Origin: Rhodocyclaceae bacterium
Lineage (GTDB): Bacteria > Pseudomonadota > Gammaproteobacteria > Burkholderiales > Rhodocyclaceae
Reading direction: 5' to 3'
Assembly: GCA_030680085.1 (NCBI GenBank)
Contig: JAUXWU010000061.1
Span: 1-32,821 of the forward strand
Length of the DNA: 32,821 nt
The notes under the pieces are model-generated. The model made no database searches. It saw only the letters and a program-made list of their open reading frames with translations, and was not told the DNA's origin. A program made the translations under genes and the position numbers. Shown one piece after another: positions 2,021 to 26,936 of the stretch. Every line of letters begins with the position of its first letter. The stretch's first letter is position 1.

Positions 2021-2044
2021 GCCGTCTCGCCAGCGCCGACTTTT
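2021..2044 (+). repeat. 24-bp dispersed repeat, intergenic copy
   Basis: GCCGTCTCGCCAGCGCCGACTTTT. Confidence 0.85.
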
Positions 2045-2051
2045 CACGGCA

Positions 2052-2094
2052 GTCACACGGACGCTGCGCGATAAAGCCGCGCAGCGCCGGTGAC
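2052..2094 (+). repeat. attC-like long hairpin (degenerate or orphan)
   Basis: GTCAC(A)CGG(A)CGCTGCGCG-ataaagc-CGCGCAGCGCCGGTGAC: 17 paired positions with two unpaired As on one arm. Confidence 0.4.
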
Positions 2095-2104
2095 TTCTAC
2101 GCGG

Positions 2105-2191
2105 GGTGAAACCGTTGAAGATGCTATCGCCAACCTGCAAGAGGCTACGGCGCTCTATCTGTCGGAGTTTTCCATTCCCGCACCAGGATAG
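2105..2191 (+). pseudogene. HicB C-terminal fragment
   Basis: GETVEDAIANLQEATALYLSEFSIPAPG*; no N-terminal part. Confidence 0.6.
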
Positions 2192-2265
2192 TCAAAGTCG
2201 GCACTCTGGCAGGCGTCCTGCGTCAGGCGGACGTATCGGCAGACGAATTCATCGCGGCCTTGTAA
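2191..2265 (+). pseudogene. HicA C-terminal fragment
   Basis: VKVGTLAGVLRQADVSADEFIAAL* resembles the HicA C-terminus. Confidence 0.6.
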
Positions 2266-2289
2266 CCGTGTTGCCCAACCCGGCATTCC

Positions 2290-2384
2290 AATCTCGCGCT
2301 CAGCATCTGTCGCATCTGCCTGCGGATTTGGCCAGGCGTATCGGCTATGAGAACGCCGAACGGCTTTACCGGCTTAACCGCTAG
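2290..2384 (+). pseudogene. C-terminal fragment of a TIM-barrel amidohydrolase-like protein
   Basis: SRAQHLSHLPADLARRIGYENAERLYRLNR* resembles the end of metal-dependent amidohydrolases (...I...NA..LY.L). Confidence 0.4.
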
Positions 2385-2401
2385 GCCGGGGGATGGCGGG
2401 G

Positions 2402-2647
2402 CTACTTCTCTGACTGGATTTTGTTCAGGATGCGCGCCCGGCCGGAGGCTTCGGCCTGATTGGCGGCGGAGACCTGGCGGCCATATTGGTCACGCTCATC
2501 CTTCGAGCGGCGCACGGCCTCGATGCTCTTGACGCAACGCCAGCGCGAGCCGGTTTTGGTGATGAGCAGCTTCATCTCCTCCACCGGATGGTGGGTGCGG
2601 CAGTGATAGCAGTAGCGGGTAGCGGGTTCTTTTTTCTCGGTACTCAT
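2402..2647 (-). CDS. Small zinc-ribbon-like conserved hypothetical protein
   Basis: MSTEKKEPATRYCYHCRTHHPVEEMKLLITKTGSRWRCVKSIEAVRRSKDERDQYG...; CxxC plus a later Cys. Confidence 0.65.
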   Translation of the reverse strand: MSTEKKEPATRYCYHCRTHHPVEEMKLLITKTGSRWRCVKSIEAVRRSKDERDQYGRQVSAANQAEASGRARILNKIQSEK

Positions 2648-2681
2648 AAGCCTGCGGATTATAGCAGTTTGGAATAGTTTG

Positions 2682-5063
2682 CTAGCTGGGCGCCAAGCCC
2701 GTCGGTTTGATCTTCGAGTCGATCGGTTGTCCCTTGCGGGCGCGGCTGCCGCGATGGCTGGCGAGTTCCTTGGCGGTGATCCGGTATTCGGCGGGTTTGC
2801 CGCCGCGACCGATGCCGCTGACGGTGAAGGCGGCGCCGTCGCCGATGGCGACCGCCACGAGTTCGTCCTTGGGCGGAATGTCCTGGATGATCGTGCCGCG
2901 TCCTTTCGCCAGGGTCTTGAGCTCGGCAAGCGGGAAGAGCAGCAGGCGGCCGCTTTGCGAGATGGCGGCTGCCGTCTCGCCAGCGCCGACTTTTACGGGC
3001 GTCAGCGGCTTCTCGCCCTGGTCGAGCGACATGAAGGCCTTGCCGACGCGGTTGCGCGAGATCAGGTCGCCCAAGCTGGCGATAAAACCGTAGCCGCCCG
3101 AGTTGGCGAAGAGATACTGCGCTACGGGCGTGTCGGTCAATGCCTGGGCCAGTTTGCCGCCGTCCTGAAATTCGACGAATGTGGTGATGGGCGCGCCGTC
3201 GCCTCGACCGCCGGGCAGGTCGGCGACGCGCACGCTGTAAGCGCGCCCGAGGCTGTCAATGAGTACCAGCGGCCAGACGGTGCGCGCCTCCATCACCAAG
3301 AGCGGGCTGTCGCCGCTCTTGTAGGCGATGCTGCCCATGTCAAGGCCATGCCCCTGCCGCGTGCGCACCCAGCCGTTTTTCGAGAGGATCACCGTCACCG
3401 GTTCGTCGGGAATGGCGACTTCGGCAAAGGCCACGGGGGCGACGGATTCGATCAGCGTCCGGCGCGCGTCGCCGTATTTCTTCGCGTCATCGGTGATTTC
3501 CCTGACGACGAGTTTGGTCAGCGCGCCACGGTCTTCCAGGATGCGGCGCAGGTCTGTTGCCTCCTCGGTCAGCGCCTGCTGTTCCTGTTCGATCTTGATG
3601 CCTTCAAGGCGCGCCAGTTGGCGCAGGCGGATTTCGAGGATGTCCTCGGCCTGGATTTCCGACAGCTTGAACTTGGCCATCAGTTCCGCCTTCGGCTCGT
3701 CAGCCGCGCGGATTGTCCTGATGATCTGGTCGATGGAGAGGAAGGCCGCCATGCGCCCGGCGAGAATATGCAGGCGGCGTTCGACCTCATTCAGCCGGTG
3801 TTTGCTGCGACGTTCGACCGTGACATGGCGGAAGGTGATCCATTCGTGCAGGATCGTCAGCAGCGGTTTCTGCGCCGGTCGGCCGTCGGTGCCGATCATC
3901 GTCATGTTGAGCGAAACATTGGCTTCGAGGCTGGTGCGCGAGAGCAACACGGCCATGAACTCGTCCTGCGGCACGCGCGAACTTTTCGGCTCCAGGACGA
4001 TGCGCACGGGGTCCTTTTCGTTCGACTCGTCGCGCACGGCATCCAGCACGCCGAGCATCACCTGCTTCGCGTTCTTCTGCTCCTGCGAGAGGTCCTTTTT
4101 GCCGGTGCGTGGTTCTGGATTGGTGACGGCCTCGATCTCGGAAAGCACCTGGGACGTCGACACGCCATGCGGCAGTTCATACACGATGACGCGCCACTGG
4201 CCGCGCGCCAGTTCCTCGATGCGCCAGCGGCAGCGCATGCGCAGGCTGCCGCGACCGCTGGCGTAGGCCGCGCGAATGTCGGCGGCGGGCGCGATCAGTT
4301 GGCCGCCGCCGGGGAAGTCCGGCCCCGGCAGCACGGTCAGCACTTCTTCGAGCGGGGCGGCCGGCTTCCTGATCAGTAGCTTCACCGCCTCGGCCACTTC
4401 GCGCAGGTTGTGCGGCGGAATTTCGGTCGCCATGCCGACGGCAATGCCCGACGCGCCGTTCAAGAGGACGAAGGGCAGCCGCGCCGGCAAAAGCTGCGGT
4501 TCGGTCAGCGTGCCGTCGTAGTTGGGTACAAAATTCACCGTGCCACGATCGATCTCGGTCAGCAGCAGTTCGGCGATCGGGGTGAGGCGGCATTCCGTGT
4601 AGCGCATCGCCGCCGCGCCATCGCCGTCGCGCGAACCGAAATTGCCCTGGCCGTCGACGAGCGGATAGCGCAACGAGAAGTCCTGCGCCACGCGCACCAT
4701 GGCGTCATAAATGCTGCTGTCGCCGTGCGGGTGGAACTTGCCGATCACGTCGCCCACCACGCGCGCGCTCTTGACGTGCTTGGCCGTGGCGAGGAGCCGC
4801 ATTTCGTTCATCGCATGGAGGATGCGGCGCTGCACTGGCTTCATGCCGTCCTCGACCTGCGGCAGGGCACGGCTTTTCACCACGCTCATCGCATAGGCGA
4901 GATAGGCGCGCTCGGCGTAGCTGTCGAGGGGGAGGGTGCTGCCGTCTTCGAAAGTCGGCGCTGGCGGGACGGCGCCAGCCGCTCCCGCCGCGTTGATGGG
5001 GACGGCGGGCGGCGGGGGATCGTTCGGGATGTCGTCGAACAGGTCAGGTGTGTCGTGGCTCAC
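2682..5063 (-). CDS. parC: DNA topoisomerase IV subunit A
   Basis: 793 aa; [37 protein letters not shown]...[11 protein letters not shown]; overlaps parE by 4 nt. Confidence 0.95.
2971..2994 (+). repeat. 24-bp dispersed repeat inside parC (sense peptide KVGAGETA)
   Basis: GCCGTCTCGCCAGCGCCGACTTTT, identical to the 2021 copy. Confidence 0.9.
4950..4973 (-). repeat. 24-bp dispersed repeat inside parC N-terminus (sense peptide AVPPAPTF)
   Basis: Reverse complement reads GCCGTCCCGCCAGCGCCGACTTTC. Confidence 0.9.
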
Positions 5064-7051
5064 AGGTCAGCCTCCACGAGGTGGCCACGGGCTTCCATCC
5101 AGGCGCGCCGCGCGGCGGCCTCGCCTTTGCCCATCAGCAGGTTGAAGAGTTTCAGGGTCTCGGCCTCGGCTTCCGGCCGTGCGGCGATGGGCAGCACGCG
5201 GCGCGTCGCCGGGTCCATGGCGGTTTCGCGCAACTGCTCGGGGTTCATCTCGCCCAGTCCCTTGAAGCGGCCGACCTCGATTTTGTCGGGGAGGAAACCT
5301 TCCTTGGCGAGCCGATCCTTGATGGCGGCGAGTTCGCCCTCGTCCAGCGCATACAGCCGCTTGGCCGGCCGTTTCTTGCCCTGCGCCGGCACGTCGATGC
5401 GATACAGCGGCGGCTGGGCGATGAACACGTGGCCCTTCGCGATGAGGGCCGGGAAGTGGCGGTAGAAGAGGGTAAGCAACAGCGTCTGGATGTGCGCGCC
5501 ATCGACGTCGGCGTCCGCCATGATGACGAGCTTGCCATAGCGCAGGTTGGCGAGGTCGGGATTGTCGGTGGCGTTGTGCGGGTCGATTCCCAAAGCCACG
5601 GCGATGTCGTGAATTTCGTTGTTGGCGAACAGGCGATTGACCTCGATTTCCCATGAATTTTGCACCTTGCCGCGCAAGGGCAGAATCGCCTGCGTTTCGC
5701 GGTTCCGCGCCATCTTGGCCGAACCGCCGGCCGAATCGCCCTCGACGAGGAACAGCTCGTTCTCGGTAATTTCGGTCGATTCGCAGTCGGAGAGCTTGCC
5801 CGGCAGCACGGCCACGCCCGACTGCTTTTTCTTTTCCACCTTTTGGACATTCTTCTGGCGGGTCAAGGCCTGCCGGATCGCCAGATCGGCAATCGCGCGG
5901 CCGGCCTCGACATGCTGGTTGAGCCAGATCTCAAACGGATCGCGCACCATGCCGGCGACCAGCTTCACCGCCTCGCGCGAGTTGAGCTTTTCCTTGACCT
6001 GGCCCTGGAATTGCGGATCGAGGATGCGCGCCGAGAGCACGTAGCCCATGCGGGCGCAGGCATCTTCCTGCTGGAGCTTGACGCCTCTGGGCAGCAGCGC
6101 ATGATGTTCGATGAAGGTTTTCAGCGCCTCGAAGACCCCGGCGCGCAAGCCCGCTTCGTGGGTGCCGCCGGCGACGGTCGGGATCAGATTGACATAGGAT
6201 TCATGAGGGATGTTTGATGCGCTATCCGCCCACCAGCCGAGCGCCCAGGCCGCGCCTTCGCCATCGGCAAAGCTTTCGTGATCGCCGCCGGCGTAATTCT
6301 CGGCGGCGTAGATCGGTGCCGCCGCCGCGCCTTCGTCGCTATCCGTGCCGACCAGTTCCCGGAGGTAGCCGCCCAGACCTTCCGGGTAGCGCCAGGTTTT
6401 CGACAACAGGCTGCCGTCGGATTGCTCGACATCGAGCGTTACCTCGACGCCGGGCAGCAGCACGGCCTTGGAGCGCAGCAGGTGTTCGAGTTCTGCCAGG
6501 GGCACCTTGGGCGTATAGAAGTATTTTGGATCGGGAATCACCCGGACGCTGGTGCCGGTCTGCCGGCCACAAGTACCGCGGGTTTCCAGCGCCGACACCT
6601 TTTCCCCGCCTTCTGAAAAAGTGACCGCATGGATCTTGCCTTCACGCCGCACTTCCACTTCGACGCTGAGTGACAGTGCATTGGTCACCGCGACACCGAC
6701 GCCGTGCAGGCCGCCGGAAAACGCATAGGCGGCATTGCCGGATTGCTTGTCGAACTTGCCGCCGGCGTGCAGGCGCATGAAGGCGAGCACGACGACAGGA
6801 ATTTTTTCTTCCGGGTGCAGGCCGACCGGGATGCCGCGACCGTCGTCCGCCACCGTGATGGCGCCGCTCCGCGCCACCGTCACGTGAAGATGCTTGGCAA
6901 AACCGGCGAGCGCCTCGTCGGCGGCGTTGTCGATGACTTCCTGGATGATATGGGCCGGCGAGTCGGTGCGGGTGTACATCCCGGGCCGCTCGCGCACGGG
7001 CTCCAGTCCCTTCAAGACGCGAAAGGATGATTCGTCGTAGGTTTGTTTCAT
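5060..7051 (-). CDS. parE: DNA topoisomerase IV subunit B
   Basis: 663 aa GHKL ATPase/[74 protein letters not shown]. Confidence 0.95.
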
Positions 7052-7213
7052 GCGGGCTAGGTTGCTCTGCGGAGCCGATAGTTCAAGAGTAAAAGTAAAG
7101 GGAGAAATTGCCTTTGTTTGCCACGCGGCGTCGTCACCCCCCCCAACGATAGAAAAATTCCGCGCTGCCCTTTACGGCGGAAGGCATTTCGGCTATAGTG
7201 CGCGCCTCAATTT

Positions 7214-7290
7214 GCGCCCGTAGCTCATCTGGATAGAGTACTTGGCTACGAACCAAGGGGTAGGGAGTTCGAATCTCTCCGGGCGCACCA
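7214..7290 (+). tRNA. tRNA-Arg (anticodon ACG), CCA encoded
   Basis: GCGCCCG...CTTGGCTACGAACCAAG...GGGAGTTCGAATCTCTCCGGGCGCACCA: cloverleaf with anticodon loop CTACGAA. Confidence 0.93.
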
Positions 7291-7297
7291 GAATATC

Positions 7298-7323
7298 AAG
7301 GGGTTAGCGAAAGCTAGCCCCTT
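7298..7323 (+). terminator. Hairpin downstream of tRNA-Arg
   Basis: AAGGGGTTAGC-GAAA-GCTAGCCCCTT, 11-bp stem (one G.T) with a GAAA tetraloop; short T tract follows. Confidence 0.5.
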
Positions 7324-7414
7324 ATCGTTTGTGGCGGGCTAACGCCCGGCTAACATTGAAACCGAATCCGTTAGCCCGTTAGTGTCTGTAATTCGGCATC
7401 TGCCCAAAACTATC

Positions 7415-7438
7415 GCCGTCCCGCCAGGGCCGACTTTT
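7415..7438 (+). repeat. 24-bp dispersed repeat, intergenic copy
   Basis: GCCGTCCCGCCAGGGCCGACTTTT. Confidence 0.85.
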
Positions 7439-8004
7439 CGCCGCTACCACCGCGCAGACGCTGGCACGCTGCCGCAGATGACAGGAAACGGGCTTGTCCC
7501 GAAACCTTCGATTGTCGCGGGCTAGTGGCTCAATGAGTGAGCCTGTCACCGAATAGCCATCTGACCGCGCCGTCACGGCGCTTGCAATCAACCCCGCAAG
7601 CCCCGCGCCGACGCTACCGCCTCGCCGACTGAACCCCGCCAGAGCGCATAAGGCCGCGCCCTGGCTTCGCGCCTTCGACTACCGCCGTCCCTCCTGCCCG
7701 CCGCTTGCGCCGTCGGCGATAAAGCCGCCCACGGCTTCAGCGGCTGCGCCGTGGGTGGTGTGAGTTGCTTCCTCGCTCATCGTCCGCGCCCGCCCGGCAG
7801 AAAAAACCTGCCAGGCGTGCACGGCCGCTGCTCTCGGTCGCCGCTGGGGCGCAAACCCTCAGTCAGAATGGTGGCAAAACCCCGCAGCTCGACGGCCGGC
7901 GCTTCGTGGCCCGCGCGCCGCTTACCTGCGGTCAAGCGGACGCGCTGCCATGCGGGCGTTTCGGGGCAAGGTCAAACCCAGTCAGCAAAATCAAAACCGC
8001 AAGC

Positions 8005-8028
8005 GCCGTGCCACCAGCGCCGACTTTT
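8005..8028 (+). repeat. 24-bp dispersed repeat, intergenic copy
   Basis: GCCGTGCCACCAGCGCCGACTTTT. Confidence 0.8.
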
Positions 8029-8040
8029 GGCCGGGTTATT

Positions 8041-8064
8041 GCCGTCCCGCTACCGCCGACTTTT
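8041..8064 (+). repeat. 24-bp dispersed repeat, intergenic copy
   Basis: GCCGTCCCGCTACCGCCGACTTTT, 36 bp after the 8005 copy. Confidence 0.8.
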
Positions 8065-8201
8065 TGAGAGATTCCGACGAAAACATATAGCAGAGTTTTG
8101 TTAGACGCTTCGCGTATTGATTAAACCAGTTGAACCCGTGCGCATGCGTCCGGTTAAAACGCTGGTTTATTTCGGACGCCTTGCCTTGCTTTATGGATTC
8201 T

Positions 8202-8222
8202 GTGAATTACAATGTAATTCAC
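8202..8222 (+). promoter_or_regulatory. Palindromic operator upstream of the relB-like gene
   Basis: GTGAATTAC-aat-GTAATTCAC, perfect 9-bp arms 15 nt before the antitoxin start. Confidence 0.6.
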
Positions 8223-8237
8223 TACAGGAGAAACACC

Positions 8238-8769: not shown

Positions 8770-8802
8770 GCCGCCGCCGTCCCGCCATCAACACCGGCTG
8801 GG

Positions 8803-9360: not shown

Positions 9361-9370
9361 CCATAACAGA

Positions 9371-10615: not shown

Positions 10616-13600
10616 ATGTTGAAAAACCTGTTCCAGTCCGCCCAGACCGCAACCAGTGCAGCCAACGCGGCCGCCCCGAAATATCCCGGCGTGCGTGGCG
10701 CCGTCGATGGCAATAGCGCCGTTATCCACGTCGAACGCGAGTCCTCGGACGCGGCGGGCGCCTACCCGATCACGCCCTCGACGCAGATGGGCGAATACTG
10801 GGCCGAGGCCGTGGCCGCCGGGCATCTCAACATCTCCGACAAGCCGCTGATTTTCATCGAGCCCGAGTCCGAGCATGCCGCGGCAGGCGTCACCGCCGGC
10901 ATGTCGATGACGGGCTTGCGCGCCACCAACTTCTCCTCGGCGCAGGGCGTCGCCTTCATGCACGAGTCGCTCTACGCGGCCGTCGGCAAGCGCCTGCCCT
11001 ATGTGCTCAACATGGGTTGCCGGGCGATTACCAAGGCTTCGCTCAACGTCCACTGCGCGCACGACGATTACCACTGCGTCGATGACACCGGCTTCATCCA
11101 GGTGATGGCGAAAAATGCCACCGAGGCGGCCGACCTCAATCTGATCGGTCGCAAGGTTGCTGAGCTTTCCCTGACCCCGGCCGTCATCGGCATGGACGGT
11201 TTTTTGACCACCCACCTGGTCGAGTCGGCGTTGTTGCCCGAGCGCGAACTCGTTGCCGAGTTTCTCGGCAAGCCCGACGACATCATCGACACGCCGACGC
11301 CGGCGCAGCAGATGCTGTATGGCCCGAAACGCCGCCGCGTGCCGGCGATCTGGGACGTCGATACGCCGCTGGTATCGGGCTCGCTGCAAAACCAGGATGC
11401 CTACATGCAGACCGTGGCCGCCCAGCGGCCTTACTTTTTCGATCATATCGAGGCCCTGGCCGATGGCTGCATGGCGGAATACGCCGGGCTGACCGGCCGC
11501 CGTTACCAGCGGCTGTCGGCCTACCGGACGGAAGATGCCGACTACGTCATCGTCGGCATGGGCAGCATGACCGTGCAGGCCGAGGCGGTCGTCGATTACC
11601 TGCGCACAACACGCGGCCTCAAGCTCGGCGTGGTGAATGTCACGATGTTTCGTCCGTTCCCGGGCGACCTGCTCGGCCGGGTGCTCTCCGGCAAGAAAGG
11701 CGTGGCCGTGCTCGAACGCACCGATCAGCCGCTGGCCGAAGACCTGCCCTTGATGCGCGAAGTGCGCGCGACCGTGGGCAAGTGTCTGGAGAATGGCCTC
11801 GCGCCGGACGCTGCGCGCCCCTATCCCGGCTATGCGGCGTTTTCTTCCAGCGAGATGCCGCGCCTGTATTCTGGCTGCTATGGCCTTGGCTCGCGCGATC
11901 TGCAGCCCGAGGCGTTGATCGGCGCGTTCGAAAATATGCTGCCCGAAGGCACGCAGCGCCGCTTCTTCTATTTGTCGGTGGATTTCGTGCGCGATCCGCT
12001 GAATCCGAAGGACGAACTGCACCAGCAGGATCTGGCAGAAAAATATCCGCACATCCGCGAACTGGCCGTGCGCGGTTCGGAAAATCCCAACCTGCTGCCC
12101 GATGGCGCCATCACCGTGCGCCTGCATTCGGTGGGTGGCTGGGGCGCCATGAGCACCGGCCAGAACCTGGCGATGACGTTGTCCGAACTGCTCGGCTGGG
12201 ACATCAAGGCCAACCCGAAATACGGTTCCGAGAAAAAGGGTCAGCCGACCACCTACTTCCTGTCGGTGGCGCCAGAGCCGATTCGCATCAACTGCGAATA
12301 TGTCTATGTCGATGTCGTGCTGTCGCCCGACCCGGCGGTGTTCGGCCACAGCAATCCGCTGTCCGGACTCAAGAAGGGCGGCTTTTTCATCATCCAGTCG
12401 AACCTGGGCGCGGAGACCTGGGCAAGCTTTCCGCTCTGGGCGCAAAAATTCATCGTCGATAACGACATTCGCGTTTACTACATCGACGCTTTCCAGATCG
12501 CCCGTGACGAGGCCGGCGCGGCCGAATTGCAGTTGCGCATGCAGGGCATCGCTTTCCAGGGCGCCTTCTTCGCCGCCAGCCCGGTGATGCAAACCGCCCA
12601 GTTGACCGAAGAGACGCTGTTTGCCGCGATCGAGGCGCAGTTGCAGTCCAAGTTCGGCGACAAGGGCGCGCGCGTGGTGCAAGACAACCTGCGCGTGGTG
12701 CGCCGCGGTTTCACTGAACTCACGGAAATCACCGATAAGCAGGTCGGCGTCACGCGCAAGAATTTTGTCAAAAAGGATGCTGGGTTGCCGATCATGCTGC
12801 GCCAGTTTCCGGCCGGCGACGGGCGCGTGTCCGACATCCACCGCTTCTGGGAGCAGACCGGCAATTTTTATCTGACCGGCAAGGGCAACGACAACCTGGT
12901 CGACCCCTTTATTGGCGCTTCGCTGATTCCGGCGTCCACCGGCGTGTTCCGCGACATGACGGGCATCCGTTTCGAGCACCCGGTGTGGATCGCCGAAAAC
13001 TGCACGGCCTGCGGCAACTGTTATGTTGCCTGTCCGGACTCGGCCATGCCGGGACTGGTGAATACGGTGAGCGATGTTTTCAATGCCGTCATCAATGGCA
13101 TCGAGACCGCCGGGACGCCGACGCGCTTCCTGCGCCGCGCCGCGCGTGGCGTCGAGAAGAAGTTGCGCGGTCTGATCAGCGGGGATGGCATGAATGTGCG
13201 CCCGCTGATCGACCAGGCGATCGAGGCTACCATCGCCGAGGCGCCCGCGGAGGATCGCGACGGCATGATGGCCGAATTCAGGTTGTTCACCGCGCGGATG
13301 GGTGATTATGCCTTCGGCACGACCAAGCCGTACTGGACGCAAAATGAAAAGAAAGCCAAGGGCAGCGGCGGCCTGTTTTCGATTGCCATCAATCCCTACA
13401 CCTGCAAGGGCTGCACGCTGTGTGTCACGGTCTGCGCGGACGATGCGCTGAAGATGGTCACGCAGACCGAGGAATCGGTCGAGTGCCTGCGCCAGGACTG
13501 GAATTTCTGGCTGACCCTGCCGACCACGGCGCCGGAATTCAGTCGTATCGACAGTCTTGACGAAAAGATCGGCGCGCTGGAAACCCTGCTGCTCGACAAA

Positions 13601-15559
13601 CACAACTACAACTCGATGAATTGCGGCGACTCTGCCTGTTTTGGTTGCGGCGAGAAGACGGCGATTCACCTGTTTACCTCCACGGTAACGGCGTTGATGC
13701 AGCCGCGCGTCAAGGCCTTTGTCGAGAAACTTGACGGCCTGATCGCACGGCTTGAACAGCACATGCGCATGAAACTCGCGTCCGCCGTCGATCTCACCGA
13801 CACCGACGCCGTGATGCGCGCGGTCGACACGACCGGCCAGCACGATCTGACCCTCTCCAACCTCGCCGCCAAGCTCGGCGCGGACAAGCCCGCGCAACTG
13901 CTTGACCCGGTCTGGGTGCGGAACACCGCCCAACTGCTGGAAAAACTCCGCGACCTGAAGTGGCGTTACGTCGAGGGACCGAGCAAACGTGGCCGCGCGG
14001 CGATGGGCATCATCAATTCCACCGGCTGCACCTCCGTGTTTGGCTCGACCTACCCCTTCATGCCCTATCCCTTCCCCTGGACCGCGCACCTGTTCCAGGA
14101 CACGCCTTCCGTGGCGATGGGCGTCTTCGAGGGCCACATGGCGAAAATGGCCGAGGGTTTCAAGGCGGTTCGCAAGGCGGAGAGTGAACTGGCCGGCGAG
14201 TATGTGCCGGCCCGCGATAACGACTTCTTCAACCGCTTCACCTGGCAAAAATTCTCGGCCGACGAGTGGCTGCTGTGCCCGCCGGTGGTGGGCATCGGCG
14301 GCGATGGCGCGATGTACGACATTGGCTTCCAGAATCTCTCGCGCCTCTTGATGTCGGGCATGCCGGTGAAGATCCTGGTGGTCGACACGCAGGTGTATTC
14401 GAACACCGGCGGCCAGGCTTGCACGTCGGGATTCGTCAGTCAGGTGTCCGACATGGCGCCCTTTGGCGATGCCCAGCACGGCAAGCAGGAAATCCGCAAG
14501 GAGATTGCGCTGATCGGCATGGCGCACCGCAGCGCCTATGTGATGTCGGGCTCGATTGCGCACGTCAATCACTTGCTCGAAAGTTACATTGACGGCCTCA
14601 ACTGCCGGCGGCCGGCGGTATTCAACATCTACACCCCTTGCCCGCCCGAGCATGGCATTGGCGACGACAAGAGCGTCGACCAGAGCAAGCTGGCGGTCGA
14701 GAGCCGCGCCTATCCGCTGTTCCGTTTCGACCCCGACGCCGGCACCACCTTCGCCGAATGCGTCAGTCTCGAAGGCAACCCGTCGCTCGACAGCGACTGG
14801 CCGATCTATACATTGAATTACCTTGATGAAGATGGCGCCGCGCAGAAGCTGACCCTGCCGATGACCTTTGCCGATTTCGCCGCCACCGAGGGGCGTTTCC
14901 GCAAGCAGTTCAAAAAGGCGCCGCCAGAGACCTGGAACGAGAACATGGTCATGCTGGCCGATTTTCTGCCGCTCGATACCGACGAGCGCGAAGGCAAGTT
15001 CCCCTACATCTGGGGCGTCGATACCAAGAACCGCCTGACGCGTCTCCTGCTGACCGAAGACATGGTGCGTGCCTGTGCCGAGCGTCTGCATTACTGGCGC
15101 CAGTTGCGCGGTATCGCCGGCCTGGATGTGCAGCCTTCGGACACGGCTGAAATCACCGAGCGCGTGCGTGCCGAACTGCTGGCGCGGATCACCAATACGC
15201 TGGGCTTGGCGGGGAGCGACGTTTACGTCGGTAGTGCCAGCGCCGGCGATGCCAGCGCCGTCGCGCCAGCGCCGACTTTTGTGGGCGCGGCGGCTGTCGT
15301 TAACGTCGACTACGAGCCGGTCTGGGTCGAAACGCCCGAATGCACGGCCTGCGACGAGTGCACCACGCTTGCCCCCAAAGTGTTCGCCTACAACGACCAG
15401 AAGCTGGCCATCGTCATCAATCCCAAGGGCGCGAAATTCGCCGACCTCGTCAAGTGTGCGGAAAAATGCACGGCGTTCTGCCTGCACCCCGGCACGCCGT
15501 GGAACATGAACGAGCCGGGTATCGAGAAGTTGATGGCGCGCGCGGCGAAACATAACTAA
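10616..15559 (+). CDS. Pyruvate:ferredoxin (flavodoxin)-type 2-oxoacid oxidoreductase, 1647 aa
   Basis: N-terminal PFOR domain (DAAGAYPITPSTQMGEYWAEA); 4Fe-4S motifs CTACGNCYVACP and CKGCTLCVTVC; TPP-binding region GIGGDGAMYDIGFQNL; VYSNTGGQACTSG; extra C-terminal ferredoxin-like domain. Confidence 0.9.
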   Translation: MLKNLFQSAQTATSAANAAAPKYPGVRGAVDGNSAVIHVERESSDAAGAYPITPSTQMGEYWAEAVAAGHLNISDKPLIFIEPESEHAAAGVTAGMSMTGLRATNFSSAQGVAFMHESLYAAVGKRLPYVLNMGCRAITKASLNVHCAHDDYHCVDDTGFIQVMAKNATEAADLNLIGRKVAELSLTPAVIGMDGFLTTHLVESALLPERELVAEFLGKPDDIIDTPTPAQQMLYGPKRRRVPAIWDVDTPLVSGSLQNQDAYMQTVAAQRPYFFDHIEALADGCMAEYAGLTGRRYQRLSAYRTEDADYVIVGMGSMTVQAEAVVDYLRTTRGLKLGVVNVTMFRPFPGDLLGRVLSGKKGVAVLERTDQPLAEDLPLMREVRATVGKCLENGLAPDAARPYPGYAAFSSSEMPRLYSGCYGLGSRDLQPEALIGAFENMLPEGTQRRFFYLSVDFVRDPLNPKDELHQQDLAEKYPHIRELAVRGSENPNLLPDGAITVRLHSVGGWGAMSTGQNLAMTLSELLGWDIKANPKYGSEKKGQPTTYFLSVAPEPIRINCEYVYVDVVLSPDPAVFGHSNPLSGLKKGGFFIIQSNLGAETWASFPLWAQKFIVDNDIRVYYIDAFQIARDEAGAAELQLRMQGIAFQGAFFAASPVMQTAQLTEETLFAAIEAQLQSKFGDKGARVVQDNLRVVRRGFTELTEITDKQVGVTRKNFVKKDAGLPIMLRQFPAGDGRVSDIHRFWEQTGNFYLTGKGNDNLVDPFIGASLIPASTGVFRDMTGIRFEHPVWIAENCTACGNCYVACPDSAMPGLVNTVSDVFNAVINGIETAGTPTRFLRRAARGVEKKLRGLISGDGMNVRPLIDQAIEATIAEAPAEDRDGMMAEFRLFTARMGDYAFGTTKPYWTQNEKKAKGSGGLFSIAINPYTCKGCTLCVTVCADDALKMVTQTEESVECLRQDWNFWLTLPTTAPEFSRIDSLDEKIGALETLLLDKHNYNSMNCGDSACFGCGEKTAIHLFTSTVTALMQPRVKAFVEKLDGLIARLEQHMRMKLASAVDLTDTDAVMRAVDTTGQHDLTLSNLAAKLGADKPAQLLDPVWVRNTAQLLEKLRDLKWRYVEGPSKRGRAAMGIINSTGCTSVFGSTYPFMPYPFPWTAHLFQDTPSVAMGVFEGHMAKMAEGFKAVRKAESELAGEYVPARDNDFFNRFTWQKFSADEWLLCPPVVGIGGDGAMYDIGFQNLSRLLMSGMPVKILVVDTQVYSNTGGQACTSGFVSQVSDMAPFGDAQHGKQEIRKEIALIGMAHRSAYVMSGSIAHVNHLLESYIDGLNCRRPAVFNIYTPCPPEHGIGDDKSVDQSKLAVESRAYPLFRFDPDAGTTFAECVSLEGNPSLDSDWPIYTLNYLDEDGAAQKLTLPMTFADFAATEGRFRKQFKKAPPETWNENMVMLADFLPLDTDEREGKFPYIWGVDTKNRLTRLLLTEDMVRACAERLHYWRQLRGIAGLDVQPSDTAEITERVRAELLARITNTLGLAGSDVYVGSASAGDASAVAPAPTFVGAAAVVNVDYEPVWVETPECTACDECTTLAPKVFAYNDQKLAIVINPKGAKFADLVKCAEKCTAFCLHPGTPWNMNEPGIEKLMARAAKHN
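15257..15280 (+). repeat. 24-bp dispersed repeat inside PFOR (sense peptide AVAPAPTF)
   Basis: GCCGTCGCGCCAGCGCCGACTTTT. Confidence 0.9.
15311..15556 (+). other. C-terminal ferredoxin-like domain of the PFOR
   Basis: YEPVWVETPECTACDECTTLAPKVFAYNDQKLAIVINPKGAKFADLVKCAEKCTAFCLHPGTPWN. Confidence 0.65.
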
Positions 15560-15568
15560 ACACGGGCG

Positions 15569-18090: not shown

Positions 18091-18788
18091 CCCCCAGCGC
18101 AGCGATCCTTCCGCAAACAACGTCCGCCGTGGCGATGATTCGCACGCTCGGGCTAATTGCCGCCCTCTGCGGCTTCATCATCGTTTCCGCCTATCAGGGC
18201 ACCTACGACGCGGTGCAGGAGAACAAGCGCATCGCCGTCGAGCGCGCGGTGTTCAAGGTGATGCCGACCGCCAGGTCCATCGTCGAATACGTCGCTTCGC
18301 CCGCCGGAGCGGTTGTAAAAGTCGGCGCTGGCGATACGGCGAAAAGCGCGGCGCCGTTGGGCGGCATCAAGTTTTACGCGGGCTACGACGCCACCGGCAA
18401 GCTGGCGGGCATTGCCGCCGAGGGCGTCGCCAAGGGCTATTCCGACAACGTGCGCATCCTGTTCGCCTACGATCCGGCGAGCGCCACCATCACTGGATTC
18501 GGTTTGGTCGCGATGCGTGAAACACCCGGCATCGGTGACAAGATTCTGGTGGACAAGAACTTTCTGGCGAACTTCCCCCTTGAGGCGAAGCTGACCGGTG
18601 ATTTGAAGAAACTCGCCCAGGCCATTGTCACCGTCAAGCACGGCAGCAAGACCCACCCGTGGGAAATCGACGCCATTACCGGCGCGACGATCACCTCGCG
18701 CGCCGTCGGCCGCGCGATCAACGACGCGGCGCAAATGCTGTTGCCGCGCATCGTTCCGCAACTCTCCGAGCTTAAGGAAAAGCCATGA
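18087..18788 (+). CDS. rnfG: Rnf complex subunit G
   Basis: One TM and periplasmic FMN-binding domain; WEIDAITGATITSRAVGRAIN (FMN-threonine motif). Confidence 0.93.
   Translation: MTPSAAILPQTTSAVAMIRTLGLIAALCGFIIVSAYQGTYDAVQENKRIAVERAVFKVMPTARSIVEYVASPAGAVVKVGAGDTAKSAAPLGGIKFYAGYDATGKLAGIAAEGVAKGYSDNVRILFAYDPASATITGFGLVAMRETPGIGDKILVDKNFLANFPLEAKLTGDLKKLAQAIVTVKHGSKTHPWEIDAITGATITSRAVGRAINDAAQMLLPRIVPQLSELKEKP
18317..18340 (-). repeat. 24-bp dispersed repeat inside rnfG (sense peptide KVGAGDTA)
   Basis: + strand AAAAGTCGGCGCTGGCGATACGGC. Confidence 0.9.
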
Positions 18789-20185: not shown

Positions 20186-20194
20186 CGCAGGGCC

Positions 20195-21457
20195 CTAGTG
20201 CCTAACGTCCTCTAGCTGGCTGACAGCGTCGTGTTGCCGCTGGTTGGCTTCGTGGTGGCGCTTGATCAGCAGCATGATAGCGGCGACAAACAGGCCGAAC
20301 ATGGCGATCACCCAGTAGATGTGCACGCCGACCATGATCAGTACCGAGTAGGTGATCGTCATGACCAGGATGGCAATGTTTTCATTGAAATTCTGTACGG
20401 CGATGGAATGACCGGCGCCCATCAGGATGTGGCCGCGGTGCTGGAGCAGGGCGTTCATCGGCACGACGAAGAAGCCCGACAGCATGCCGATCAGCACCAT
20501 CAGCGCCATGGCGACCCAGGTGTCGCGGACGACGACCATCGCCAGGACGATGATGCCCATGGCAATGCCGAGCGGGATGACGCGCACGGCCTTGCGCAGG
20601 GTGATCAGGCGCGCCGCCAGTACCGCGCCGATGGCGATGCCGACGGCGACGACGCCTTGCAGCATGCTGGCCTTGGACAGGTCGAGGTTGAGCGCCACCT
20701 TCGACCATTCGATGACGATGAACTGCAAGGTGGCGCCTGCGCCCCAGAACAGGGTGGTCACCGCCAGCGAAATCTGGCCGAGCTTGTCGCGCCACAAGAG
20801 TTGCACGCAGTGCTTGAACTCGTGGAACAGATAGATCGGGTTCTTCTTGAGCGGCTTGTGGTCGACGCCGGTATCGGGCACATACAGATTGAAGAAGGCG
20901 GCCACCAAATACAGTCCGCCAATGATCAGGAGACTCATCTCGGCTACGCTGTCGATGCCGGTGTCGAGCACCGGAAAATCGAAGGAGAGCAGGTTCTGGG
21001 CGATGGTCGGATTGATCATCAGGCCCCCCAGCACCACGCCCAGCACGACCGCCCCCACCGTCAGTCCCTCGATCCAGCCATTGGCGACGACCAGCAGGCG
21101 GTGCGGCAGATATTCGGTGAGGATGCCGTATTTGGCGGGCGAATAAGCGGCGGCGCCGAGGCCGACCACCGCGTAGGCCAGCAGCGGATGCAAATCGAAG
21201 AACATCAGCGAACAGCCGAAAATCTTGATGCCGTTGCTGATGAACATGACGCGCCACTTCGGCATCGAGTCGGCGAAGGCGCCAACAAAGGCAGCCAGCG
21301 CCACATAGGAAATGGTGAAGAAGGTCTTGAGCAGCGGTTCATATTCCGCCGGCGACTGCAGGTCGCGCAGGATGGCGATGGCCACAATCAGCAGCGCGTT
21401 GTCGGCGAGCGCGGAAAAAAACTGCGCCGCCGTGATGATGTAGAACCCGGGTTTCAT
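20195..21457 (-). CDS. lplT: MFS lysophospholipid transporter-like protein
   Basis: MKPGFYIITAAQFFSALADNALLIVAIAIL...AYSPAKYGILTEYLPHRLLVVANGWIEGLTV; LplT-like. Confidence 0.8.
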   Translation of the reverse strand: MKPGFYIITAAQFFSALADNALLIVAIAILRDLQSPAEYEPLLKTFFTISYVALAAFVGAFADSMPKWRVMFISNGIKIFGCSLMFFDLHPLLAYAVVGLGAAAYSPAKYGILTEYLPHRLLVVANGWIEGLTVGAVVLGVVLGGLMINPTIAQNLLSFDFPVLDTGIDSVAEMSLLIIGGLYLVAAFFNLYVPDTGVDHKPLKKNPIYLFHEFKHCVQLLWRDKLGQISLAVTTLFWGAGATLQFIVIEWSKVALNLDLSKASMLQGVVAVGIAIGAVLAARLITLRKAVRVIPLGIAMGIIVLAMVVVRDTWVAMALMVLIGMLSGFFVVPMNALLQHRGHILMGAGHSIAVQNFNENIAILVMTITYSVLIMVGVHIYWVIAMFGLFVAAIMLLIKRHHEANQRQHDAVSQLEDVRH

Positions 21458-21620
21458 GGCCGGCGGTTTATATCACGAAAGTCTGTCAGCGATATTTCGC
21501 CTGCGGGATCGGGGCAGCGCCACCCGTAGCGGGGGATTCATTGCATCAGGCTTTCTTATGCGTCAAATTTGTGTTCGAATGCCAGTCTTATACAAAACCA
21601 GAAAATGAAGGGGAGTACTT

Positions 21621-22526
21621 ATGGCTGATCGCAGGCTTCAGGTTTTTCACGCCGTCGCCAAACAGCTTTCGTTCACCAAGGCCGCCGAGGTGCTGTTCAT
21701 GACGCAGCCGGCGGTGACTTTCCAGATCAAACAGCTCGAAGAGCACTTCAATACACGCCTGTTCGATCGTGGTCACGGCCGCATTTCGCTCACCCCGGCG
21801 GGCGAACTGGTGCTGACCTATGCCGAGAAAATCCTCGGCCTCTCCGGTGAAATGGATGTGCGTCTCTCCGAGATGACCGGCGAGGTGGGCGGGTCATTGC
21901 TCGTGGGCGCCAGCACGACTATTGCCGAATTCCTGCTGCCGCGCATCCTCGGCGAATTCAAGGCTAAATTTCCGAATGTCAAGCCCTGCCTGGTGGTGGC
22001 CAACTCCGAAGCCATCGAAATGCGCGTCGCCGAACACACCATCGACATCGGCTTCATCGAGTCGCCATCGCACCAGCCCAACCTGCAAACCGAGGTTTGC
22101 TGCGAGGACGAACTGCAGATCATCTGCAGCCCGAAGTTTCCGCTGGCGCGCATGAAGGAAGTCACGCCGCAGCAACTGATCGAATATCCCTTTGTTTCGC
22201 GCGAACCCGGCTCGGGCACGCGCGAATTCACCGAAGTCTATCTGCAAAAAAATGGCGTCAATATCGACCACATGCAGCCGGTGATGGAACTGGGCAGCCC
22301 GCTCGCCTTGCTTGAAGTGGTCGAAACCGGCCTGGGCTACGCCATTGCTTCGCGCACCTCTGTGTTGAAGGCGCTGCGTCTGGGCGACCTGGTCTCGATT
22401 CCGCTCAAGCCGCGCCTGACGCGCCAGTTGTCGATGGTCTACCCGAAGGAAAAATTCCGCTCGCGGTTGGTGACGGCCTTCGTCGATTTTGCGACCGAGA
22501 AGCTCAAAGAGTGCAAGAGCAAATAG
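21621..22526 (+). CDS. LysR-family transcriptional regulator
   Basis: N-terminal HTH RRLQVFHAVAKQLSFTKAAEVLFMTQPAVTFQIKQLEEHFNTRLFDR. Confidence 0.93.
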   Translation: MADRRLQVFHAVAKQLSFTKAAEVLFMTQPAVTFQIKQLEEHFNTRLFDRGHGRISLTPAGELVLTYAEKILGLSGEMDVRLSEMTGEVGGSLLVGASTTIAEFLLPRILGEFKAKFPNVKPCLVVANSEAIEMRVAEHTIDIGFIESPSHQPNLQTEVCCEDELQIICSPKFPLARMKEVTPQQLIEYPFVSREPGSGTREFTEVYLQKNGVNIDHMQPVMELGSPLALLEVVETGLGYAIASRTSVLKALRLGDLVSIPLKPRLTRQLSMVYPKEKFRSRLVTAFVDFATEKLKECKSK

Positions 22527-22533
22527 CCCGGGC

Positions 22534-23607
22534 ATGACGCGGCCGATTCGCGCCACGATTGACCTGGCCGCACTGCGGCATAACTTCGGCGTCGCCCGCC
22601 GCCATGCCGGACACGCCAAGCTTTGGGCAGTGGTCAAGGCCAATGCTTACGGCCACGGCCTGGAACGTGCCGTTGCCGCCCTCACCGACCTGACCGATGG
22701 TTTCGCGCTGATCGAGCTTGAACGCGCCGTGCAATTGCGCGCGGCCGGGCTCAAGCTGCCGATCCTGATGCTCGAAGGTTTTTACAGCGCTGATGAGTTG
22801 CCGCTGTTCATCGAACATCGCCTGACGCCGGTGCTGCACCGGATCGACCAGCTACAGACGCTGCAGGACGCTCGCTGGCCGGCCACGCTGCCGGTCTATC
22901 TCAAGCTCAATACCGGCATGCATCGGCTGGGCTTCAATGCCGCCGGGCTTGTCGCCGCCCGCGCCGCGCTGGCCGGCAAGGTGGACGACATTACCCTGAT
23001 GACGCACTTTGCCGACGCCGATGGCCTGCGCGGCGTCGATTGGCAGCTCGAACGCTTTGCCTTGATGACTGCCGACATGGATCTGCCCTGTTCGCTGGCG
23101 AATTCCGCTGCGTTGCTGCGTTTCCCCGACATGAAAAACGACTGGGCGCGTCCCGGCATCATGCTCTATGGCGGTTCGCCGTTTCCGCAGTTGATATCCG
23201 CCGCAGAACTGGATCTCCAGCCGGTGATGACCCTGCAAAGCGAGATCATCGCCGTGCAGACGCTGGCGGCCGGCGATAGTGTTGGCTATGGTTGCACCTT
23301 CACCGCCGATCGTCCGATGAAGATCGGCGTGGTCGCCTGCGGCTACGCCGACGGCTATCCGCGCCACGCGCCGACCGGCACGCCGGTATTGGTGAATGGC
23401 CTGCGCACGCGCACCCTCGGCCGCGTGTCGATGGACAAGCTCTGTGTCGACCTGACGGAACTCCCCGCAAAAGTCGGCGCTGGCGGGACGGCGACCATGT
23501 GGGGGAAAGGATTGCCCGCCGACGAAGTCGCCAGCGCCGCCGGCACCATCAGCTATGAATTGTTTTGCGCTCTCGCAGCGCGCGTACCGGTCGGCGAAAT
23601 TAACTGA
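22534..23607 (+). CDS. alr: Alanine racemase
   Basis: AVVKANAYGHGLERAV (PLP Lys); LNTGMHRLGF; GYADGYPRHAPTGTPVLVNG. Confidence 0.95.
   Translation: MTRPIRATIDLAALRHNFGVARRHAGHAKLWAVVKANAYGHGLERAVAALTDLTDGFALIELERAVQLRAAGLKLPILMLEGFYSADELPLFIEHRLTPVLHRIDQLQTLQDARWPATLPVYLKLNTGMHRLGFNAAGLVAARAALAGKVDDITLMTHFADADGLRGVDWQLERFALMTADMDLPCSLANSAALLRFPDMKNDWARPGIMLYGGSPFPQLISAAELDLQPVMTLQSEIIAVQTLAAGDSVGYGCTFTADRPMKIGVVACGYADGYPRHAPTGTPVLVNGLRTRTLGRVSMDKLCVDLTELPAKVGAGGTATMWGKGLPADEVASAAGTISYELFCALAARVPVGEIN
23469..23492 (-). repeat. 24-bp dispersed repeat inside alr (sense peptide KVGAGGTA)
   Basis: + strand AAAAGTCGGCGCTGGCGGGACGGC. Confidence 0.9.
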
Positions 23608-23609
23608 AC

Positions 23610-24989
23610 ATGGTCAAACCCAAATCGATTTATTCCTGCACCGAATGCGGCGCCAGCGCGCCCAAGTGGCAGGGGCAATGCCCCGGTTGCGCGCAGTGGA
23701 ACACTCTGGTGGAGGCCGTCGCAGACATAGCGACGCCGGCCAGCAAGCGCTTCGGCGCCAATTTCGCACCGCTGGCGGCCAGCAGCAAACCGCAGGACCT
23801 GGCGGCCATTCGCCCGCGCGATGAGCCAAGGCTGGCGACCGGCGTCGAGGAGTTCGACCGCGTGCTGGGTGGCGGACTGGTCGCTGGTGGTGTGGTGCTG
23901 ATCGGTGGCGATCCGGGCATTGGCAAATCGACGCTGCTGTTGCAGGCGTTGGCGCGACTTGCCGAAGCCGGCCAGCCGGTGCTGTATGTCTCCGGAGAAG
24001 AATCCGGCGAACAGATTGCCCTGCGCGCCAATCGGCTGCAACTGCCCGCCGCCGGGATGCGCCTTTTGGCCGAGATCAATCTCGAAAAAATCATCGCCGC
24101 GCTGCAAGACGAGAAACCGCTGGTCGCGGTGATCGACTCGATCCAGACGCTCTGGTCGGATGCCCTGCAATCGGCCCCCGGCTCGGTCGCGCAGGTGCGC
24201 GAATGTGCGGCGCAATTGACGCGCTTCGCCAAGCAGACGGGGGTCTGCATCATCCTCGTCGGCCATGTGACGAAGGAAGGCGCGCTGGCCGGCCCGCGCG
24301 TGCTCGAACACATCGTCGATACCGTGCTCTATTTCGAGGGCGACACGCACTCGAGCTTCCGTCTCGTGCGCGCCGTCAAGAACCGCTTTGGCGCGGTCAA
24401 TGAGTTGGGCGTGTTTGCCATGACCGACAAGGGTTTGAAGGGCGTCTCGAACCCTTCCGCCCTGTTTCTCTCGCAACATGCGCAGGATGTCGCCGGCAGT
24501 TGCGTGCTGGTCACGCAGGAAGGCACGCGGCCTCTGCTGGTCGAGATTCAGGCGCTGGTCGACAGCGCGATGGGCGGCAACCCGCGCCGGCTGACGGTCG
24601 GCCTCGACCCGCAACGGCTGGCAATGTTGCTCGCCGTGTTGCACCGGCATGCCGGCGTGATGTGCGGCGATCAGGATGTCTTCGTCAATGCCGTTGGCGG
24701 CGTGCGCATCCAGGAACCGGCGGCCGATCTGGCCGTGCTGCTGGCGATCGTCTCGTCCTTGCGCAACCAGCCCTTGCCCGGCAAATGGGTGGCCTTCGGC
24801 GAAATCGGCCTGGCCGGCGAAATCCGCCCCGCTCCGCGCGGCCAGGAACGTCTGAAGGAAGCCGCCAAGCTCGGCTTCACCCATGCCCTGATCCCCAAGG
24901 CCAATGCGCCCAGGCAGCCGATCAAGGGCATGACGGTGATCGCGCTGGAACGTGTCGAGCAGGCTATCGAGCAGATGCGGAACGGGTAA
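23610..24989 (+). CDS. radA: DNA repair protein RadA
   Basis: YSCTECGASAPKWQGQCPGCAQWNTLVE zinc finger; GGDPGIGKSTLLLQ Walker A; KNRFGAVNELGVFAM. Confidence 0.95.
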   Translation: MVKPKSIYSCTECGASAPKWQGQCPGCAQWNTLVEAVADIATPASKRFGANFAPLAASSKPQDLAAIRPRDEPRLATGVEEFDRVLGGGLVAGGVVLIGGDPGIGKSTLLLQALARLAEAGQPVLYVSGEESGEQIALRANRLQLPAAGMRLLAEINLEKIIAALQDEKPLVAVIDSIQTLWSDALQSAPGSVAQVRECAAQLTRFAKQTGVCIILVGHVTKEGALAGPRVLEHIVDTVLYFEGDTHSSFRLVRAVKNRFGAVNELGVFAMTDKGLKGVSNPSALFLSQHAQDVAGSCVLVTQEGTRPLLVEIQALVDSAMGGNPRRLTVGLDPQRLAMLLAVLHRHAGVMCGDQDVFVNAVGGVRIQEPAADLAVLLAIVSSLRNQPLPGKWVAFGEIGLAGEIRPAPRGQERLKEAAKLGFTHALIPKANAPRQPIKGMTVIALERVEQAIEQMRNG

Positions 24990-24992
24990 CAT

Positions 24993-26936
24993 TCAGTTCG
25001 TATCGTGTAGCAGTTCATAGGCTTCGACTGGCTGCCCTCGGCCCTTGACTTGCAAGGAGTAGCGCGCCCCGGTGCGAATGTTCGGGCCGCAGGCCTTGAC
25101 AGTGGCCTGGCTGGCGAGAATTGCGCAACCCGTTTCCTTGGTCATGCCTTCCAGACGCGAGGCGACGTTGACAACATCGCCAATCGCTGTGTATTCCATT
25201 CGGGTGCTTGAGCCGATGTTGCCCACCACGGCTTCGCCGCTGTGCAGACCAATGCCGATATCGAATCTGGGTAGATTGCGTTCGGGGAAGCGATCATCCA
25301 TCCAGCCGCGAAAATCCGTGGCTACCTGTCGCAATGCCAGCGCCGCGCGGACGGCCCGTGCCGCATGGTCTGCTTGCGGCAGAGGGGCGCCGAATTCCGC
25401 CATGATGGCGTCGCCGATGAATTTGTCGATGGTGGCATCCTCGGCGAGTAGCGCGGCGCAGGCCCGCTCGAAGTAGCTGTTGAGCAGTTCGACAACCTCG
25501 TGCGCGGCGAGTTTTTCGCTGATGGTGGTAAAACCGCGAATGTCGGAAAACAGCACGGTGATCGCCGCCGCCTTGCCACCGAGTTCCGGCGGTTCCGTTG
25601 CGTTGATCAGTGCTGTCACCACACGGGGCGAAACGTAGCGACTGAACATGGCGCCGATACGCGCCTTTTCGCGTTCCTCGTGCGTCAGGCGCAGTAGCGT
25701 CAGGCCGCCGAGCACCACGGCCATGCCGATATGCAGGTGAGCGACGGGGAAAAGCAGGTTTTGCTTGAATAACAGATAAGTCGACGCTGCACTGAACAGC
25801 ACGGCGCCCATGACGAGCAAAACCGACCCCAAGGGTGTCAGCCGTATGCCGATAAAAGCCAGCATGCCGAACAGCGCGAGAAAAGTGGTCAGCCGCGGTA
25901 GTCCGGACACTGGCTCGAGCCAGTGGCCGCCGAGTAGTGTTTCGACGATGTTGGCTTGAATTTCCGCTCCTGTCATCAGGCGATTCTTACCGCCCAAGCT
26001 GGTTGAGTACGGCGTGGGATGCGCGTCGCCCGTGCCGGCATAACCAGCGCCGAGAATGACAACCTTCCCCGCCAGTGCCTGTATCTCCAGCCGCTTTGTT
26101 GCATCGGGTTGCAACAGTGTTTCAAAGGAAATCGCACTAAAAGTACCCGGCGGCCCGGCATATGAGATGCGTAGTTCGGTGGCCGGCGGCCAGGCGCGGC
26201 CGCTAAAGGTGAATTTGCCATCGCTAGTTGCAGCGCGTGTGTCTTGACCGCTGGCGCGGATCGCCGCCAATGGCCCGAATGCCAGCAGTGGCAGACCCTC
26301 GCGGCGAGCGTAATCGCTGCTCGCTTCCAATAGTCCGAAGCGGCGCACCGTGCCGTCCGAATCCGCGCGAAGATTCGCCAGACCGATGCCGCGCACCATA
26401 TCCATGTCAGGAAGGGCCAGCAGATAGTCCGGGTTGGGTAAAACGAAATCATCCGCCGTCTCGCCAGCGCCGACTTTGAATGCTGCAAGCTCGACATATC
26501 CAGCATTGATTGCTGCCCGGAACGGCTGGTCGAGGTTGCGAGAGGCTTCATTGGCCTGCAGACCCATCTTGGCGATCCACCGTTCCGGAGAACTGCTAAA
26601 GATAAAGTCGATTGCAACCAGCTTGACGCCGACCTCGCGCAATGTCGCCAGCGCCTGCGCCAGATGAGGCGTCCAGAATGCCAGCGGCTCGTCGGGGCGC
26701 GCATTGAGGCTCGGATCGTCGATCATCACCAGCGCCGCATGAATCGGCACATGGCGCTGACCGGCCAGTCGATGCCAGATATCCGCATAGAGATGTTCGA
26801 GTCGTTCGGCCGCGCCGCTGCGGTAGAGTCCTTCCGTTACGCCGGTGGCCAGCAGAACGGCTGCCAGCGCCACTATCCGGCTTTGGCGCAACAGTGATTG
26901 CAGCGGCCTGTGAATGCGCATTGATCCGTCATTCAC
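24993..26936 (-). CDS. CHASE2-domain adenylate/guanylate cyclase
   Basis: N-terminal CHASE2 region, TM segments, then ITVLFSDIRGFTTISEKL...FIGDAIMAEFGAP...GIGLHSGEAVVGNIGSSTRMEYTAIGDVVNVASRLEG. Confidence 0.9.
   Translation of the reverse strand: MNDGSMRIHRPLQSLLRQSRIVALAAVLLATGVTEGLYRSGAAERLEHLYADIWHRLAGQRHVPIHAALVMIDDPSLNARPDEPLAFWTPHLAQALATLREVGVKLVAIDFIFSSSPERWIAKMGLQANEASRNLDQPFRAAINAGYVELAAFKVGAGETADDFVLPNPDYLLALPDMDMVRGIGLANLRADSDGTVRRFGLLEASSDYARREGLPLLAFGPLAAIRASGQDTRAATSDGKFTFSGRAWPPATELRISYAGPPGTFSAISFETLLQPDATKRLEIQALAGKVVILGAGYAGTGDAHPTPYSTSLGGKNRLMTGAEIQANIVETLLGGHWLEPVSGLPRLTTFLALFGMLAFIGIRLTPLGSVLLVMGAVLFSAASTYLLFKQNLLFPVAHLHIGMAVVLGGLTLLRLTHEEREKARIGAMFSRYVSPRVVTALINATEPPELGGKAAAITVLFSDIRGFTTISEKLAAHEVVELLNSYFERACAALLAEDATIDKFIGDAIMAEFGAPLPQADHAARAVRAALALRQVATDFRGWMDDRFPERNLPRFDIGIGLHSGEAVVGNIGSSTRMEYTAIGDVVNVASRLEGMTKETGCAILASQATVKACGPNIRTGARYSLQVKGRGQPVEAYELLHDTN
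26455..26478 (+). repeat. 24-bp dispersed repeat inside the CHASE2 cyclase gene (sense peptide KVGAGETA)
   Basis: GCCGTCTCGCCAGCGCCGACTTTG. Confidence 0.9.

Follow-up and report, generated by a model that had tools for sequence, protein, structure and literature searches.

We found that an asymmetric 25-bp repeat is scattered through a 32,821-nucleotide stretch of a Rhodocyclaceae genome (contig JAUXWU010000061.1 of assembly GCA_030680085.1; hereafter, the window) and through the rest of that genome. Judging from its footprint, the repeat is probably a DNA-uptake-signal-like sequence, which would be kept by biased DNA import and homologous recombination. A first-pass annotation of the window had listed ten copies of a 24-bp unit. 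All of them (10/10) were recovered at the listed positions and on the listed strands with 0-2 mismatches, where 0 copies were expected, and no copy appeared in 100 dinucleotide shuffles of the window. The observed repeat is confirmed as real.

The genome containing the window (G000; 2,443,278 bases or 2.44 Mb, 225 contigs, 96.6% complete) had 499 copies at ≤3 mismatches, 250 forward and 249 reverse, or ~204 per Mb. The reversed pattern, searched as a control, gave 0/0. The expectation for independent and identically distributed bases was 0.0075 copies. The observed count was therefore more than 10^4 times chance, far from the near-random number that would have spoken against a genome-wide signal. 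As a class, uptake sequences likewise number in the hundreds to thousands and occupy either strand. In a 400-kb sample of the genome, the histogram of mismatches was bimodal, with 35, 34, 18, 6, 5 and 2 copies at 0, 1, 2, 3, 4 and 5 mismatches and the background starting from 6.

In the same 400 kb, the sharp boundaries described earlier were confirmed by flat, unrelated flanks, but the length was not: the unit is really 25 bp and reads C-GCCGTCYCGCCAGCGCCGACTTT-t. The C precedes the described 24-mer in 84% of copies, and the terminal T is conserved in just 65%. No significant hairpin was found in the motif, which agrees with the earlier remark that it lacks a strong palindrome. The copies were randomly spaced along the chromosome; even spacing was looked for and not seen. 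By our own arithmetic, the conservation summed over the motif columns is ~39 bits, whereas ~13 bits would be enough to mark 500 sites. Such over-specification matches the prediction of molecular drive.

Chromosome-wide distribution and dialects

We counted exact-core copies in a complete chromosome of 2,737,315 bases (genome G080). There were 70 forward and 69 reverse copies. Divided into five bins, the forward copies were evenly distributed (P = 0.53; the positions used comprised all 70 forward copies and left out 39/69 reverse copies). Neither replichore polarity nor strand bias was found in this chromosome, so the polar, origin-to-terminus signal for which a check had been proposed was not seen. 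We read three long gaps between forward copies. Two were filled by other copies, and one was a true desert of 146 kb (C1, ~1798600-1945000; L453-L460), with 2 weak copies against 34.8 expected (Poisson P = 5e-13). As this region was picked for its forward-copy gap, we also considered the reverse strand alone, which had 0 copies against 17.4 expected (P = 3e-8). The desert carried phage genes (terminase, tape measure, tail, S49 peptidase and D5 primase), two large serine recombinases, copper-resistance genes and a DISARM-like defence cluster with matches to DrmA/B/D, DrmMI and DrmMII. The DNA uptake sequences (DUS) of Neisseriaceae are known to be depleted in acquired DNA (PMC2397512; PMC7371117), and depletion in recently acquired DNA, here seen on one 146-kb region, belongs to the features of the uptake-sequence class. 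The density contrast within one genome (2 vs 35 expected) also offers a flag for recently acquired islands.

These data bear on the main rival explanation, which holds that the motif is a clade-specific binding site of a cytoplasmic protein for chromosome organisation, segregation or repair. Hundreds of asymmetric sites, spread chromosome-wide with random spacing, would suit such a protein, as would the restriction to one clade and the higher conservation of the motif than of its flanks (both described below). Canonical ComEA was not found in most motif-rich genomes, which leaves room for a role other than uptake. However, the complete chromosome showed no replichore polarity, unlike Chi or the FtsK-orienting polar sequences (KOPS), and the conservation far exceeds what recognition of 500 sites needs. 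Moreover, a placement restricted to tolerated positions, at sites that differ between species, is easier to obtain under drive than under selection site by site. We consider this explanation unlikely, though it deserves to be taken seriously.

The nearest named relatives by ParC were Rhodocyclaceae, including Sulfurisoma, Sulfuritalea and Rugosibacter. These genera and their relatives form a motif-rich group with ~65-205 copies per Mb. Among the 151 genomes of the family that were surveyed, six genera (g1, g2, g9, g38, g46 and g64) had ~200-775 copies per genome. In a seventh genus, one genome had ~70 copies, mostly of the CAGCGTCGAC variant, and in an eighth, one had ~30. Nearly all of the remaining genomes had 0-10 copies. 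Samples of other families of the order had 0-5 copies, and a sample of the class 0-2. The dialects have a common core, GCCGTnnCrCCAGCGCCGACT, in which nn is lineage-specific, as are the 3' bases. In an unbiased search for over-represented 12-mers, those of the core ranked top in 4/4 motif-rich genomes sampled. The same search found nothing comparable, and no alternative dialect, in 80-100 kb samples of nine motif-negative genomes, and it did not pick up the core in G023 (~30 copies per genome) either. The motif thus forms a system of dialects that spans one group of Rhodocyclaceae and is absent in the other members sampled from the order and class. Lineage dialects around a fixed core are another feature of uptake sequences as a class. 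In several motif-poor genomes, among them G056, G055, G083 and G129, the few copies lay close together, sharing a contig or a span of tens of kb, and look as though they were imported from motif-rich relatives.

Contigs classed as viral also contained the motif. An exact core match was present in at least 120 stretches of them (L181-L260), a lower bound that gives no density; they may belong to phages of motif-bearing hosts or be host DNA assigned wrongly. One IMG/VR viral contig (L207) had five same-strand copies at 883-2236, the first four of which were 316 bases apart, forming a tandem repeat that bears the motif.

Placement and origin of the copies

The placement of 100 copies was determined with a simple home-made gene caller (399 genes; 90% coding, 10% non-coding DNA), whose uncertainty is carried by all counts of frames and coding positions. 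Sixty-two copies lay within genes, 32 were strictly intergenic and six were partial. With 32% of copies in DNA that is 10% non-coding, the intergenic excess was highly significant (P about 1e-9). Enrichment outside genes together with permissive positions inside them is what uptake sequences show as a class. Within genes, 33 copies were sense and 29 antisense. This balance implied that the element acts at the level of DNA, not of RNA or protein. Among the 62 copies in coding sequences, four reading frames were common (KVGAGxTA 21, AVPPAPTF 18, RRLASADF 13 and KSALAGRR 7) and two were rare (2 and 1, 3 in total). The frame bias is real (chi-square P = 3e-6) but non-exclusive. The earlier statement that the frame is constant within each orientation thus holds in the window and fails genome-wide. 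As a separate observation, a weak pilin-like open reading frame (ORF) on contig C51 of the same genome (L149) carried a KVGAG motif peptide.

In the window, the first-pass annotation was right about the six copies inside genes and about the peptides that they encode. Two lie in parC (2682..5063, minus strand), which encodes topoisomerase IV subunit A (PF00521, E = 5e-132). One is antisense (2970..2994, plus strand) and encodes VKVGAGETA at amino acid 690, in a C-terminal loop of variable length. The other is sense (4950..4974, minus strand) and encodes AVPPAPTFE at amino acid 31, in a variable N-terminal extension. The gene for pyruvate:ferredoxin (flavodoxin) oxidoreductase (10616..15559, plus strand; PF01855, PF01558 and PF17147) has a copy at 15256..15280 (plus strand), read as AVAPAPTFV; this peptide falls in a linker that varies in length and precedes the last Fe-S domain. 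The remaining three are antisense to their genes: VKVGAGDTA (18317..18341, minus strand) in the gene of an RnfG-like FMN-binding protein (18135..18788, plus strand; PF04205, E = 4.5e-16), AKVGAGGTA (23469..23493, minus strand) in the alanine racemase gene alr (22534..23607, plus strand; PF01168 and PF00842), and FKVGAGETA (26454..26478, plus strand) in a gene for a CHASE2 / adenylate-guanylate cyclase (24993..26921, minus strand; PF05226 and PF00211).

The other four copies, all on the plus strand, are intergenic: 2020..2044, where no gene was called (0 mismatches), 7414..7438 (1 mismatch), and a direct pair at 8004..8028 and 8040..8064 (2 mismatches each). The last three fall inside 650 bases of a segment (7300-8200) that has no called genes and lies 3' of a tRNA-like sequence recognised by eye (~7218-7291). 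Elsewhere in the window, we noticed three near-tandem units of 27-30 bases (CGGCGGCGGCC...) at 27803-27887, near the start of an ORF of 557 amino acids.

Could the in-gene copies merely reflect ordinary protein conservation, or a coincidence of codon bias? The commonest frames do give small, flexible peptides, as this explanation would have it. However, distant ParC orthologues lacked the motif peptides, and it had been anticipated that finding the same peptides in distant orthologues at all six sites would undermine a DNA-level signal. Also against it stand the intergenic share of the copies (32%) and the occurrence of the motif in either orientation and in four common frames. This explanation is refuted.

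The origin of the copies was studied by comparison with orthologues. Occupied sites differed between species, as seen in ParC, alr and other orthologue comparisons. At the alr site, motif-less orthologues mostly aligned colinearly or with a gap of ~one codon, and the orthologues showed full gradation from 0 mismatches down to no recognisable motif. One or more motif-less orthologues were available for 101 sites, and net changes in length there peaked near 0 and +/-3. Among the pairs, 42% differed by ≤3 nt, changes of -18 to -30 were found in 6.8%, and there was no peak of 24-bp gaps. Only two sites had nothing but -18 to -30 gaps. A few sites resembled clean gains, such as L392:1477, where the relatives listed had net changes of -18 to -29. 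The length changes and the alr pattern suggest that the motif was mainly built up where it stands, through substitutions and small indels, and was not inserted as a unit. Apart from the few insertion-like exceptions, this is also how uptake sequences originate as a class. Where orthologue pairs shared the motif, identity was 89% within it and 73% in the flanks. The orthologue pairs at all these sites are non-independent, and those sharing the motif were selected for core similarity, so the comparison is support and not proof.

The first-pass annotation had also considered an in-frame mini-element. In its general form, this explanation posits a mobile or homing element like those known as repetitive extragenic palindromes (REP), Rickettsia palindromic elements (RPE) or miniature inverted-repeat transposable elements, inserting as a discrete unit of ~24 bp. 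The sharp boundaries and unrelated flanks would fit an insertion, and so would the few gain-like sites. The length data do not: no peak was seen at -24, and most relatives were colinear at the alr site, where intermediate states also occurred. The motif also lacks a hairpin and is nearly absent from the prophages and islands of the complete chromosome. A mobile element is thus disfavoured and very improbable.

Competence genes and a possible uptake route

Taken together, these features make up the footprint of an uptake signal: the motif is abundant, balanced between the strands, split into dialects, placed at permissive positions, built in place, more conserved than its flanks, over-specified and depleted in a large acquired island. 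Among the ideas of the first-pass annotation, an analogue of known uptake sequences was the best supported, by the copy number, strand balance, dialects, placement, in-place origin and island depletion. From this footprint, we infer a receptor, an import bias and transformation. DNA bearing the word would be preferred by a receptor on the cell surface, for which a type IV minor pilin of the ComP/PilE-like or FimT-like kind is the likeliest candidate. Entry would take place via the pilus apparatus and then ComEC, with DprA helping recombination; genes for ComEC, DprA and minor pilins are present. Near-matches arising by mutation would be favoured, as fragments bearing them would be imported more often, and copies would accumulate wherever they are tolerated, which is the placement that we observed. 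Related genera would then drift to dialects around the fixed core, as the survey of the family showed, and newly arrived prophages and islands would lack the word, as the 146-kb desert does.

The competence machinery was compatible with this route and not diagnostic of it. The genome containing the window had 20 N-methyl pilin matches, 17 of which individually exceeded the family cut-off. Two pilins were of the PF16732 (ComP_DUS) family, one of which is encoded in an operon with PilV/PilW/PilX-like genes, next to lytB. ComEC was found in 43/43 genomes and DprA in 16/17.

Several observations weigh against an uptake signal. The main weakness is a gap at ComEA: the canonical protein (TIGR00426/PF12836) was found in only 2/15 motif-rich genomes, and it was not found in the complete genomes G080 or G069. 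Matches of ~800 amino acids to TIGR00426/PF12836 (HHH_3) were rejected as ComEA, being Tex-like by length. PF16732 pilins were equally frequent in motif-negative genomes, and a tree of the pilins contained no clade matching the distribution of the motif; thus, these pilins did not single out the receptor. The motif is also longer, at 25 bp, than the 12-bp DUS and the 9-bp core of the uptake signal sequence (USS) of Pasteurellaceae, and the inverted terminator pairs typical of DUS and USS were not seen.

The ComEA gap would also suit molecular drive by exchange without pili, through vesicles, gene-transfer agents or conjugation, with the motif favoured at recombination instead of at uptake. Such a process would leave an identical population-genetic footprint. 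However, ComEC and DprA were found, as were type IV minor pilins, and we know of no non-pilus exchange system with a 25-bp signal. Drive of this kind seems improbable to us, and we prefer an uptake signal read by a pilin.

If an uptake signal is indeed at work, a third and environmental family would provide an independent test of how such signals evolve (sex for repair or selfish drive), and its pilins would be a new set in which to search for receptors. The word might also make hard-to-engineer degraders of sulfur and aromatic compounds transformable.

Comparison with known repeats and signals

The literal motif was not found in the open-access literature, most subscription papers being outside the search, and open-access work held nothing relevant on uptake sequences or ComEA in Rhodocyclaceae or on competence in Sulfuritalea. 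REP elements, their mosaic combinations (bacterial interspersed mosaic elements) and RPE are likewise short dispersed repeats, RPE lying partly inside genes. Our motif differs from them in being non-palindromic and built in place, with neither a hairpin nor insertion as a unit. Chi, KOPS and matS are also short dispersed signals at the DNA level, but the motif has no replichore polarity, is much longer and is over-specified.

According to a paper of 2025, the known users of uptake motifs are confined to Neisseriaceae and Pasteurellaceae (PMC12616744). Self-recognition of DNA at uptake may have arisen a third time, with the longest signal known (25 bp) and mostly without canonical ComEA; from the sequence evidence at hand, we find the arguments for and against this evenly balanced. 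The USS of Pasteurellaceae resembles the motif in having hundreds to thousands of copies and two dialects, and the density of the Apl type (~200-500 per Mb; PMC12616744) matches ours. However, USS has a different sequence with a 9-bp core, AAGTGCGGT or ACAAGCGGT (PMC12616744), neither of which is the core of our motif, and Pasteurellaceae belong to another family that is not closely related. DUS, whose receptor is ComP, is likewise asymmetric, present on both strands, placed at permissive sites of the core genome, divided into dialects with a fixed core and rare in acquired DNA (PMC3630211; PMC2397512; PMC7371117). ComP-family pilins (PF16732) are present in the genome containing the window as well. 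In contrast, DUS is 12 bp long and occurs in thousands of copies per genome, against 25 bp and ~200 copies per Mb here. The missing terminator pairs and the ComEA gap set our motif apart too, as does the finding that PF16732 pilins occurred in genomes with and without the motif, where a cognate ComP would co-vary with it. The motif does not contain the CTG-core 12-mer of DUS (PMC3630211). Both begin with GCCGTCT, which is probably a coincidence, as the CTG core that DUS requires is not at this position. As its sequence is neither DUS nor USS, we class the motif as a functional likeness of these uptake sequences and not as a member of either.

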